Shown here one piece after another: positions 31,137 to 36,496 of a stretch of 64,000 nucleotides of DNA (positions are counted from its first letter, which is position 1; every line of letters starts with the position of its first letter). This DNA is from Muricoccus pecuniae (GTDB lineage: Bacteria; Pseudomonadota; Alphaproteobacteria; Acetobacterales; Acetobacteraceae), in NCBI RefSeq assembly GCF_014199205.1, contig NZ_JACIJD010000003.1, positions 186,001 through 250,000 on the forward strand, written 5' to 3'. A program made the position numbers and the translations under genes. Below the pieces are notes generated by a model. It was not told the DNA's origin and made no database searches. It saw only the letters and a list, made by a program, of their open reading frames with translations.

Positions 31137-33278
31137 ATGGATTCCGAGAGGATCGAGGAACTCAGGCGGCGGGTGGAGGCGCTGGAGGCCGAGGCGGCCG
31201 CCCTGCGCGCGCGGCTCGGCACCGCCGGGGATGCCGGCTCCGTGCCCTGGGCGAGCGCCGGCAGCGGGCGGGAGATGCTGGCCGCGATCAACGAGCGCTA
31301 CCGACTGGCCGCGCGGGCGACGAACGACGCGGTCTGGGACTGGGACCTCCGCGCCAACACGGTGGAGTGGAACGAGGCGCTGGAGGCCGCCTACGGCCAC
31401 GCCCCCGCCGCCGCGGAGCCGACGGGGGACTGGTGGATCGCCCATATCCACCCCGAGGACCGCGCCCGCGTGCATGACGGCATCCACGCCGTGATCGACG
31501 GCGCGGGCAGCAACTGGACCGGGGAGTACCGCTTCCGCCGCGCCGATGGGGGCTACGCCACGGTGCTCGACCGCGGCTTCGTCATCCGGGACGCCTCGGG
31601 TGCGGCCATCCGCATGATCGGGGCGATGCTGGACCTCAGCGCGAGCAAGCGGGCCGAGGCGGCGCTGCGCGAGAGCGAAGACCGCCTGCGCCTGGCCACC
31701 GCCGCCGCGCGGATCGGCACCTTCGACTTCCTCGTGCGCACCGGCGCGCTGACCTGGGACGACCGCTGCCGCGAGCTGTTCGGCGTGCCGCCCGGCACCC
31801 CGGTGAGCTACGAGGGCACCTTCCTCGCCGGCCTGCACCCGGAGGACCGCGCGCGGGCGGACGCGGCCGTCTCGGCGGCGCTGGACCCCGCGGGCACGGG
31901 CAGCTTCGACACGGAATACCGCACCATCGGCCTGTCGGACGGGGTGGAGCGCTGGGTGGCCGCCAAGGGAGAGGCCTTCTTCGAGGAGGGCCGGGCCGTC
32001 CGGCTGATCGGCACCGTGCTCGACATCGGCGAGCGCAAGCTGGCCGAGATGCGCCAGCGCGAGATGAACGAGCGGCTGGAGGAGCTGGTCGAGGCGCGCA
32101 CGGCGGCGCTGCGCAAGTCCGAGGAGCAGCTTCGCCAGAGCCAGAAGATGGAGGCGGTCGGCCAGCTCACGGGCGGGATCGCGCACGACTTCAACAACCT
32201 GCTGACGGGCATCACCGGCTCGCTGGAGCTGCTGAGCGCGCGCATCGCCCAGGGGCGGGTGCGGGAGGTGGACCGCTACGTCGTCGCGGCGCAGGGGGCG
32301 GCGGCGCGCGCCGCCTCCCTCACGCACCGGCTGCTGGCCTTCTCCCGCCGGCAGACGCTGGATCCCCGGCCGACCGACGTGAACCGCCTCGTCGGCGGCA
32401 TGGAGGAGCTGATCCGCCGCACGATGGGCCCGGGAATGGTGGTGGAGGTGGTGGCCGCCGCCGGGCTCTGGACGACGCTGGTGGACCCGAACCAGCTCGA
32501 GAACGCGCTGCTCAACCTCTGCATCAACGCGCGGGACGCCATGCCCGGCGGCGGGCGGCTGACGGTGGAGACGGCCAACCGCTGGCTGGACGCCCGCGCC
32601 GCGCGCGAGCGCGAGCTGCCGCCGGGCCAGTACATCTCCCTCTGCGTGAGCGACACGGGCACGGGGATGACGCCCGAGGTGATCGCCAAGGCCTTCGACC
32701 CCTTCTTCACCACCAAGCCGCTCGGCCTCGGCACCGGGCTCGGCCTCTCCATGATCTACGGCTTCGCGCGTCAGTCCGGCGGGCAGGTGCGGATCTACTC
32801 GGAGGCGGGCGAGGGCTCGATGGTCTGCCTCTACCTCCCCCGCCACCACGGCGAGGCGGAGGAGGCCGTGCCGCTGCCCGAACTCCCGGCCCTGCCGCGC
32901 GCCACGAAGGGCGAGACGGTGCTGGTGGTGGATGACGAGCCCACCGTGCGGATGCTGGTGGCGGAGGTGCTGGAGGAGCTGGGCTACGCCGCGCTGGAGG
33001 CCGCCGACGCCGCCTCCGGGCTGAAGCTGCTGCGGTCGGATATGCGCATCGACCTGCTGGTGACGGATGTGGGCCTGCCCGGCGGCATGAACGGGCGGCA
33101 GATGGCCGATGCGGCGCGGCTGGCGCGGCCGGGGCTGAAGGTGCTGTTCATCACCGGCTATGCCGAGAACGCGGCCGTGGGGAACGGCCATCTCGAGCCT
33201 GGCATGCATGTGATGACCAAGCCCTTCGCGATGGACGCGCTCGCCACCCGCATCCGGGAGCTGATCGAGGAGCGCTGA
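31137..33278 (+). CDS. Hybrid PAS-PAS-HisKA-HATPase-REC histidine kinase
   Basis: 713-aa cytoplasmic hybrid kinase. A short N-terminal coiled coil (residues 1-28), two PAS/PAC domains (about 50-170 and 180-305), a linking coiled coil ([20 protein letters not shown]), HisKA with H350 in [13 protein letters not shown], HATPase_c ([37 protein letters not shown]) and a C-terminal receiver with D644 (VTDVGLPGG), VVDDEP and [10 protein letters not shown]. No membrane segment. This layout is common in alphaproteobacteria; the output phosphotransfer partner is not nearby. The ATG at 31137 follows ACCGGACGGGA with a modest Shine-Dalgarno. Confidence 0.92.
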
Positions 33279-34341: not shown

Positions 34342-35082
34342 GTGCTGATCGCGCTGCTGGCGGATGTTCATGCGAACCGGGAGGCGCTGGAGGCCTGCCT
34401 GGAGCACGCGCGGGAAGCCGGGGCGGAGCGGCTGGTCTTCCTCGGCGACCTCGTGGGCTACGGCGCCGATCCGGAATGGGTCGTGGAGACCGTCATGGCC
34501 GAGGTGGCGCGGGGCGCCGTGGCCGTGCGGGGCAACCACGACGACGCCGTGCGCAAGGGGCCTGGCGGCATGAACGGGATGGCCGCCGCCGCGATCGACT
34601 GGACGCGGGAGCGGCTCTCGCCGGAGGCGGCGGGGTTCCTCGCGCGGCTGCCCCTGGACTGGGAGGAGGAGGGGCGCCTCTACGTCCATGCCGACGCCTC
34701 CGACCCCGAGGCCTGGCACTACGTGACGGATGCGGACGCCGCGCTCGCCTCGCTGAACGCGACGGATGCCTGGGCGACCTTCTGCGGGCACACCCACGTG
34801 CCCAGGCTGTTCGGGATCACGGCGGCGGTGAAGCTGACGGGCTTCCGGCCGGTGCCGGGCGTCGCGGTGCCGCTGCTGCGCGCGCGGAAATGGGTGGCGG
34901 TGCTGGGCGCCGTGGGCCAGCCGCGGGACGGCGACCCCTCGGCCTGCTACGGCATGCTGGACACCGAGCGGTCCGAGTTGACCTGGCATCGCGTACCCTA
35001 CGACGCGGCGGCGGCGGCGGAGAAGATCCGCGAGGCCGGGCTGCCGGAGGTGCTGGCGCTGCGGCTGCTGCGCGGGGCCTGA
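34342..35082 (+). CDS. Calcineurin-like metallophosphoesterase
   Basis: 246-aa phosphoesterase with all metal motifs of the superfamily in order: LLADVHANREAL (DxH), VFLGDLVGYGADP (GDxxxxG), AVRGNHDDAV (GNHD), LYVHADASD (His) and FCGHTHVPRLFG (GHTH). The family includes bacterial protein phosphatases and cyclic or dinucleotide phosphodiesterases. GTG at 34342 has GGGGGAAA upstream. Its TGA is 1 base before the GTG of a Ser/Thr kinase-UspA gene, a spacing that implies tight coupling; a role in removing phosphate set by that kinase is inferred. Confidence 0.88.
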   Translation: MLIALLADVHANREALEACLEHAREAGAERLVFLGDLVGYGADPEWVVETVMAEVARGAVAVRGNHDDAVRKGPGGMNGMAAAAIDWTRERLSPEAAGFLARLPLDWEEEGRLYVHADASDPEAWHYVTDADAALASLNATDAWATFCGHTHVPRLFGITAAVKLTGFRPVPGVAVPLLRARKWVAVLGAVGQPRDGDPSACYGMLDTERSELTWHRVPYDAAAAAEKIREAGLPEVLALRLLRGA

Positions 35083-35083
35083 G

Positions 35084-36496
35084 GTGGCGCGGCCCCGCCT
35101 GACCACCGGCGACAGGCTGGACGGCTTCCTGATCGGGGAGCGGGTCCATGCCGGCGGCATGGCGCTGCTCTATTCCGTGACGCATCCGGCGCACGACCTG
35201 CCGATGCTCATGAAGGTGCCCCGCCTGTTCGAGGGGGAGGACCCGGCGGCGATCGTCTCCTTCGAGATGGAGGGGATGATCCTCCCCCGCCTGTCCGGGC
35301 CGCATGTGCCGCGCTTCGTGGCGGGGGCGGGGTTCGAGCGCCAGCCCTACATCGTGATGGAGCGGGTGGCGGCGTCCTCGCTGGAGGGGCGGATGCGGGA
35401 GGCGCCCTGGCCGGTGGAGGAGGTGGCCCTCCTGGGCGCCCGGATCGCGGCCGCGCTGGACGCGCTGCACCGCCGGCACGTGATCCATCTCGACATCAAG
35501 CCGGGCAACATCCTGCTGCGGGAGGATGGCACGGCCGTGCTGGTTGATTTCGGCCTGTCCCGCCACGACCAGCTACCCGACCTCATGGAGGAGGAGTTCC
35601 GCCTGCCCTACGGCTCCGCGCCCTACATGGCGCCGGAGCAGGTGATGGGCATCCGCAGCGATCCCCGGAGCGACCTCTTCGCCCTGGGGGCGCTGATGTA
35701 CCACATGGCCACTGGCGCGCTGCCCTTCGGGAATCCCTCGCGGATGAAGGGGCTGAAGCGGCGGCTGTGGCGGGACCCCGTGCCGCCGCGCCGGTTGCGC
35801 CCGGAGGTGCCGCCCGCCCTGCAGGAGGTGATCCTGCGCTGCCTGGAGGTGGAGCCGGACCGCCGCCACCCGACGGCGGCGCAGCTCCTCTTGGACCTCC
35901 GCAACCCCGAGGGGGTGGCGCTGACGCAGCGTGCCGGGAAGCTCCGCCGGGACGGGTTCGGGGCCGTGCTGCGGCGGCGCTTCAACCCGGAGGCGCAGCC
36001 GCGCTTCCGCCGCCCCGTGGCGCAGGGGATCGCGGCGGCGCCGATCCTGGCGGTGGCGGTGGCGCTCAGCCGGGAAGGGGGCGAGGAAGGGGCGGGGCTC
36101 TCAGAGGAGCTGCGCCGGGCGGTGGCGCGGATGCTGCCCACCCTGCCGGGGGCGCGGCTGGCCTGCCTCAACGTGCTCAGGCTGAACCGCATCCAGCTCG
36201 ACACGACGCTGGACGCGGAGGGGCGGAGCAAGCACGCGCGGCGCCTGGCCGAGCTGCGGCACTGGGCGGCGCCGCTGGGCCTGCCGGAAGGGCGCGTGAC
36301 CTTCCACGTGCTGGAGGCGGTGGACCCGGCGGCGGCGCTGCTTGAATTCGTCACCGTGAACCCGGTGGACCATGTCGTTCTGGGCGCGCGGGGAAGCTCT
36401 GCGCTGCGCCAGCACGTGGGCAGCGTCTCGGCGGCGGTCTCCGCGCGGGCCCCCTGCACCGTGACGGTGGTACGTCCCCGTACGCGGGAGGATTAG
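35084..36496 (+). CDS. Ser/Thr protein kinase fused to a universal stress protein domain
   Basis: 470-aa two-domain protein. Residues 12-275 are a Hanks-type kinase: a Gly-rich loop GERVHAGGMALLY, catalytic Lys K44 (MLMKVP), HLDIKPGN with D137 and N142, D155-F-G, and APE at 183-185. Residues 315-466 are a UspA-like domain (ILAVAVALSREGG ... VVLGARGSSAL), with the ATP-loop G434-x2-G437 followed after eight residues, one fewer than usual, by G446-S447. No membrane helix, so both domains are cytoplasmic. The usual HRD is HLD, which occurs in some bacterial kinases. Starts GTG, 1 base after the phosphoesterase stop; the two look like a writer and eraser pair linked to stress or nucleotide sensing (inference). 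Confidence 0.88.
   Translation: MARPRLTTGDRLDGFLIGERVHAGGMALLYSVTHPAHDLPMLMKVPRLFEGEDPAAIVSFEMEGMILPRLSGPHVPRFVAGAGFERQPYIVMERVAASSLEGRMREAPWPVEEVALLGARIAAALDALHRRHVIHLDIKPGNILLREDGTAVLVDFGLSRHDQLPDLMEEEFRLPYGSAPYMAPEQVMGIRSDPRSDLFALGALMYHMATGALPFGNPSRMKGLKRRLWRDPVPPRRLRPEVPPALQEVILRCLEVEPDRRHPTAAQLLLDLRNPEGVALTQRAGKLRRDGFGAVLRRRFNPEAQPRFRRPVAQGIAAAPILAVAVALSREGGEEGAGLSEELRRAVARMLPTLPGARLACLNVLRLNRIQLDTTLDAEGRSKHARRLAELRHWAAPLGLPEGRVTFHVLEAVDPAAALLEFVTVNPVDHVVLGARGSSALRQHVGSVSAAVSARAPCTVTVVRPRTRED

Follow-up and report, generated by a model that had tools for sequence, protein, structure and literature searches.

A kinase-universal stress protein fusion and its near-constant metallophosphoesterase neighbour suggest a compact stress-signalling switch

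Described relatives and the layout of the locus

The union of a Ser/Thr kinase with a universal stress protein (Usp) domain has been on record for some time. Sections of a 2005 survey list Ser/Thr kinases (STYKs) joined to USPA in three proteobacteria, with a suggested induction by stress, and also list fusions of PP2C with a kinase (PMC1262709). These kinases share with the protein described here the combination of kinase and USPA, and Bradyrhizobium is among the relatives that we found; the likeness is one of domain listing, and the parts of the survey that include section 6 and Table 2 give no order of the two domains. In its main text, 'phosphoesterase' and 'calcineurin' both have 0 occurrences. 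Plants likewise join a Usp to a kinase, as passages of a study on Usp structures published in 2013 mention, and some Usp domains are stated there to bind nucleotides (PMC3673472). These two papers were the relevant reports in a literature search on kinase with Usp, and a search on phosphoesterase with Usp and kinase found no on-topic paper; in both, most subscription papers lay outside the search.

In the window, the 64,000-nucleotide stretch of Muricoccus pecuniae DNA analysed here, a first-pass annotation had described a Hanks kinase with residues K44, D137, N142 and D155, joined to a C-terminal Usp domain and preceded, one base away, by the gene for a calcineurin-like metallophosphoesterase (MPE). 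Each element of this description is confirmed (Table 1). Pfam assigns the fusion to Pkinase (6.6e-29) and Usp (2.7e-13) and the MPE to Metallophos_2 (7e-18) and Metallophos (2.1e-12). The Usp half belongs to the Usp fold family, scoring 51.1 bits against a curated Pfam cut-off of 24, and all four additional fusions that were scanned (4/4) also exceed the cut-off. The DxH, GDxxxxG, GNHD and GHTH motifs attributed to the MPE can all be read, as D8xH10, G35DLVGYG, G64NHD and G149HTH, together with H116. Upstream of the pair on the + strand, an open frame at 31137-33278 resembles, by eye, a hybrid sensor histidine kinase with a receiver domain.

Table 1. Features of the locus in window coordinates.
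Feature	Position	Strand	Remarks
Calcineurin-like metallophosphoesterase (MPE; Metallophos_2)	34342..35082	+	GTG 34342, TGA 35082, 246 aa; partner enzyme
Single base between the MPE and fusion genes	35083	.	Tight junction, suggesting co-translation
Hanks-type kinase fused to a C-terminal universal stress protein (Usp) domain	35084..36496	+	GTG 35084, TAG 36496, 470 aa
Kinase domain	35153..35890	+	Residues 24-269 by Pfam; nucleotide loop HxGGMA from residue 22
Kinase-domain residues K44, E61, HLD137 (non-RD), N142, DFG155-157, APE183-185	within 35153..35890	+	
Activation segment SRHDQLPDLMEEEFRLPYGS	35558..35617	+	Residues 159-178; no classical phospho-Thr; conserved E170-E171
Usp domain by Pfam	36113..36475	+	Residues 344-464; first strand from 321 in structure model
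Shortened Usp ATP-type loop GARGSSALRQHVGS	36383..36424	+	Residues 434-447

Pairing of the fusion with the metallophosphoesterase across genomes

Pooling the fetched matches, choosing those of full length and removing near-copies gave 106 distinct fusions. The first-pass annotation had proposed looking for homologues of the same domain order and for conservation of the phosphoesterase neighbour; close homologues with the Usp domain proved to be common, and an MPE lies directly upstream in 104/106. One of the two exceptions, L108, stands at a contig edge, with just 125 bases ahead of the fusion that by eye resemble the tail of an MPE. The other, L124 (1323-2841), is a shortened copy with no MPE upstream, in which the N-terminal 31 residues are missing and unrelated sequence takes their place; it is apparently the result of decay or misassembly. 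At L061, the MPE is only partly within an open frame. The gap between MPE and fusion is +1 to +6 nt in 78/104 pairs and ranges from -10 to +191, with outliers of 117 and 191.

Broader sampling gave the same picture. Across a class sample of 385 genomes, 10 full-length fusions were found in 9 genomes, all 10 with an MPE upstream; the worst E value among them was 2.8e-153, and the next matches, kinases without a Usp domain, came at 1.5e-38. A phylum sample of 398 genomes, sharing four fusion-carrying genomes with the class sample, held 24 copies in 23 genomes, with the MPE linked in 23 of the 24. A scan of named genomes returned at least 499 relatives; the best 80 of these comprise 58 from Pseudomonadota, 21 from Acidobacteriota and 1 without a phylum, and the MPE is linked in 79 of these best 80. 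The search was also run in reverse, with an MPE profile over the 385 class genomes and at most seven candidates scored per genome. Thirteen places reached E <= 1e-20, and the 10 below 1e-80 are precisely the 10 fusion-linked MPEs; the three weaker places (35-36% identical) had no fusion relative in the surrounding bases examined. The 104/106 linkage and the reverse search rule out chance adjacency of the two genes. Among neighbour families over 81 loci (the best 80 of at least 499 relatives, plus the window), the fusion is present at 81, the MPE at 80 and the next family at 19, the second row of that table being an antisense shadow of the fusion. With a next neighbour at only 19/81, a larger operon is ruled out for the loci seen.

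The two proteins have also diverged together. Distances between pairs of fusions track those between their MPEs, with a correlation of 0.85 where the highest of 200 permutations reached 0.135; the corresponding value is 0.89 for kinase and Usp within one protein, 0.80 for kinase and MPE, and 0.84 for Usp and MPE. A co-inherited partner of some other kind could give the same linkage and correlated distances as a phosphatase. The pair is also present in Acidobacteriota, of which 20 fusions form one branch among alphaproteobacterial copies and a 21st falls elsewhere, in a midpoint-rooted tree built by a fast method from fusion sequences only, with several weak forks. Because these copies branch among alphaproteobacterial ones with the MPE linked, horizontal transfer of fusion and MPE as a pair seems likely.

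The genome of M. pecuniae holds the complete pair a second time, on a different contig, its fusion 63% and its MPE 64% identical to those of the window. Two further matching Hanks kinases carry an N-terminal PP2C phosphatase domain; these PP2C-kinases (574-2454 of L003 and 526-2337 of L004) lie about 9 kb apart on contig C30 of the same genome. As two of the four matching kinases are paired with an MPE and two carry their own PP2C, each has a phosphatase-type partner, with the proviso that kinases unlike the query could be missed.

In a minority of relatives, the region upstream of the MPE hints at a link to oxygen. The sequence TTGA-N6-TCAA, which we take to be an FNR/FixK-type box, occurs within 250 nt upstream of 23/104 MPE genes, giving 24 boxes where the remainder of these loci, mostly coding DNA, would predict 0.46. 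Ten of the 23 boxed genes are from Bradyrhizobium, seven from a genus grouping with Bradyrhizobium and six from others; in the 17 genes of the Bradyrhizobium group, which are not independent, the box lies at -56 to -59 relative to the start of the MPE (e.g. L075, L080, L111 and L118). It is plausible that the pair is linked to low oxygen in rhizobia. No FixK/FNR-type box was found upstream of the window copy or of the second copy in its genome, and FNR/FixK control of the window copy was rejected after a search for TTGAT-N5-TCAA, allowing one mismatch, turned up a single distant site, in line with chance. The parts of papers found in a literature search on FixK with Usp name other usp genes and never 'protein kinase'.

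Kinase and Usp domains

K44, E61, H135, D137, K139, D155, G157, P184 and E185 are invariant in 106/106 fusions, and the window copy has the complete Hanks-kinase set of Lys, alphaC Glu, HxD Asp, Asn, DFG and APE. A catalytically dead kinase, which the first-pass annotation had named as telling against its reading, is therefore not seen at the sequence level. There are, nonetheless, departures from the norm on which a scaffold or pseudokinase, with the Usp domain as the working part, could be argued: the nucleotide loop reads HxGGMA instead of GxGxxG, with His at the first-Gly position in 102/106 (G24 is kept in 105 and G25 in 100), the kinase is non-RD, and N142, kept in 86/106, is Ser in 20/106. 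The invariance of the catalytic residues and the N142 of the window copy make such a role very improbable. The 20 copies with Ser belong to Bradyrhizobium (13) and to a genus grouping with Bradyrhizobium (7) and may, to judge from this substitution, differ in activity from the other fusions. In each of the 20 (e.g. L012, L075, L080 and L118), the residue ahead of the catalytic Asp is His.

An active kinase, as we prefer to read it, would be unusual in its activation segment. Leu precedes the catalytic Asp in 83 fusions, His in 22, Phe in 1 and Arg in 0 (n=106), the window reading HLD; RD kinases thus account for 0/106 fusions against 18/30 control kinases, these controls being fetched kinase loci without a full-length match and not a random draw. 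Past DFG+2 and before the P+1 segment, the loop contains no Ser or Thr in 98/106 fusions against 4/30 controls. When DFG+2 is included, where Ser is common in the fusions, the figures become 20/106 and 2/30. Acidic residues are retained in the loop, E170 in 104/106 and E171 in 101/106. The HRD and phosphorylatable loop of loop-phosphorylated RD kinases of the PknB type are both lacking. Since the fusions are never RD and 98/106 have no loop Ser/Thr beyond DFG+2, control by activation-loop phosphorylation, including loop autophosphorylation, appears unlikely. Among solved kinases, PknB comes closest in both sequence and fold, and the structure model of the kinase is close to it; the fold comparison of the fusion model returned kinases only, and hence informs on the kinase half.

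The Usp domain departs from its classical form in turn. Its ATP loop had been described as one residue shorter than usual, rightly so since G434 to G446 spans 13 residues in the window against 14 in the canonical G-2x-G-9x-G(S/T); being one short is a family trait, shared by 102/106 fusions. The first Gly is kept in 102, the last Gly in 100 and the Ser in 93 of the 106, with the second Gly retained in only 3, the window copy among them. D327, the N-terminal Asp of the Usp domain, is kept in 101/106 and in the second copy of the genome, and is Ala in the window. The fusion family does not show the canonical loop and N-terminal Asp that characterise an ATP-binding Usp. Degenerate loops are common in ordinary Usp domains too: a pattern search found the canonical loop in only 9/31 ordinary Usp loci, a number that includes one wrong-frame match, so that the remodelled loop by itself is not special to the fusion family. 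Because the second loop Gly is lost in 103/106, classical ATP sensing by the Usp domain of the fusion appears unlikely. The idea of the first-pass annotation that UspA nucleotide sensing gates the kinase is weakened by this loss and by the absent Asp of the window copy; a degenerate loop would count against classical ATP binding, and not against another ligand. Two Cys residues of the Usp domain are conserved, C361 (36164-36166) in 104/106 and C458 (36455-36457) in 106/106.

The metallophosphoesterase and the role of the pair

The MPE has the dinuclear metal site of calcineurin-like enzymes (D, H, D, N, H, H, H), with D8, H10, D36, N65 and H66 present in 103/104 copies and H116, H150 and H152 in 104/104. 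Its relatives offer little by way of functional names. Across its whole length the MPE is related to 3rqz in the PDB (E 4.1e-34; E 1.1e-56 to the MPE profile), a metallophosphoesterase presumably from Sphaerobacter, whose label gives no function. Of 11 solved relatives, not one bears the name of a protein phosphatase, and the closest carry no label beyond metallophosphoesterase, hypothetical protein or YfcE. Assignment to the PPP protein phosphatases was rejected, as their signature (GDxHG, GDxVDRG, GNHE) is absent and the MPE reads ADVHAN, GDLVGYG and GNHD. A part in anti-phage defence was rejected too: among the 34 PADLOC rows of the fusion, the 25 listed fall on its kinase part and are mostly PD-T4-6, and the MPE gave no PADLOC match.

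The solved relatives that do have a functional name are dinucleoside tetraphosphatases (2qjc at E 7.2e-8; 2dfj and others at about 0.002-0.003). The main rival to our reading builds on them: the MPE could be a nucleotide phosphoesterase, with Ap4A-like alarmones or a cyclic nucleotide as examples of its substrate, and so control how much of a small molecule is available to a kinase-gating Usp domain, in keeping with the nucleotide binding of some Usp domains (PMC3673472). The short, degenerate ATP loop, the missing Asp of the window copy and the unlabelled function of 3rqz speak against it, and we regard it as possible, if doubtful. Substrates of MPE families are very broad, and the weak, sub-cut-off matches of this MPE are to YfcE and polynucleotide kinase-phosphatase models. 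Both points would suit a kinase and an MPE that serve the same pathway on different targets (protein as opposed to lipid, sugar or an RNA end, for example) and are paired just for joint expression, an arrangement made unlikely by the near-obligate one-to-one linkage and the absence of a third general neighbour.

In the relatives examined, the fusion travels almost without exception with its own MPE, which suggests that the two form a compact stress-signalling switch, perhaps linked to stress or oxygen. We tentatively favour, at a probability a little short of even, a single conserved signalling module in which a soluble Hanks kinase-Usp fusion is opposed by a co-expressed calcineurin-type MPE acting as its dedicated phosphatase. 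The anatomy, the intactness of the catalytic residues, the near-obligate pairing with its correlated divergence, and the non-RD and degenerate Usp loops are observed; to these the reading adds kinase activity, phosphatase activity of the MPE on protein and control by the Usp domain, which we infer. Being non-RD, with an acidic loop free of Ser/Thr beyond DFG+2, the kinase would be active without waiting for activation-loop phosphorylation. Its output would more likely depend on the Usp domain, which might dimerise or bind some ligand that is not MgATP in the classical mode, and also on the amount made under stress or low oxygen, while the MPE would strip phosphate from the substrate of the kinase or from the Usp domain. 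The presence of PP2C-kinase fusions as the two other matched Hanks kinases of the genome fits such an eraser; the names of the solved MPE relatives, the missing PPP signature and the lack of FixK/FNR-type boxes at the copies in this genome count against it.

It is tempting to take the dedicated phosphatase further, to a module that is widespread and moves horizontally. In it, a non-RD kinase that is always poised would be restrained by a Usp domain whose ligand site has been remodelled away from the classical form, and a phosphatase of the calcineurin type, belonging to neither PPP nor PP2C, would act as the eraser. Bacterial Ser/Thr kinases would then have one more type of phosphatase partner, with a tie to low oxygen in rhizobia; in this full form we think the reading rather unlikely. 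If true, it would give universal stress proteins, still poorly understood at the molecular level, a place in a defined kinase/phosphatase switch whose substrate can be tested, and Ser/Thr signalling in bacteria would gain an eraser of the calcineurin type. The small size of the pair and its frequency in the sampled groups make both activities directly testable. What deserves following up is the near-obligate presence of the MPE and an activation loop that is non-RD and poor in Ser/Thr; the Usp site comes after these.

The first-pass annotation knew of no described system with this order, a statement that does not hold for the fusion, which is listed in sections of the 2005 survey (PMC1262709) and named in RefSeq. 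On plasmid NZ_CP115852.1 of Pseudoroseomonas cervicalis, a 'bifunctional serine/threonine-protein kinase/universal stress protein' and a 'metallophosphoesterase family protein' represent the same two genes in the same order with the same 1-base gap, the fusion being 64.5% identical; what is on record there is database product names only. This pair (L157) sits beside sulfate transport genes on the 389-kb plasmid. The fusion is already known, and the MPE pairing is the new part. Plant USP-kinase proteins presumably carry the Usp domain at the N-terminus, whereas it is C-terminal here. PknB-type kinases with PP2C, and PP2C-kinase fusions, likewise combine a Hanks kinase with a linked phosphatase; no PASTA part was matched by Pfam in the fusion, and the pair described here differs from those systems in having a calcineurin-type MPE in place of PP2C, a non-RD kinase and no loop Ser/Thr beyond DFG+2.
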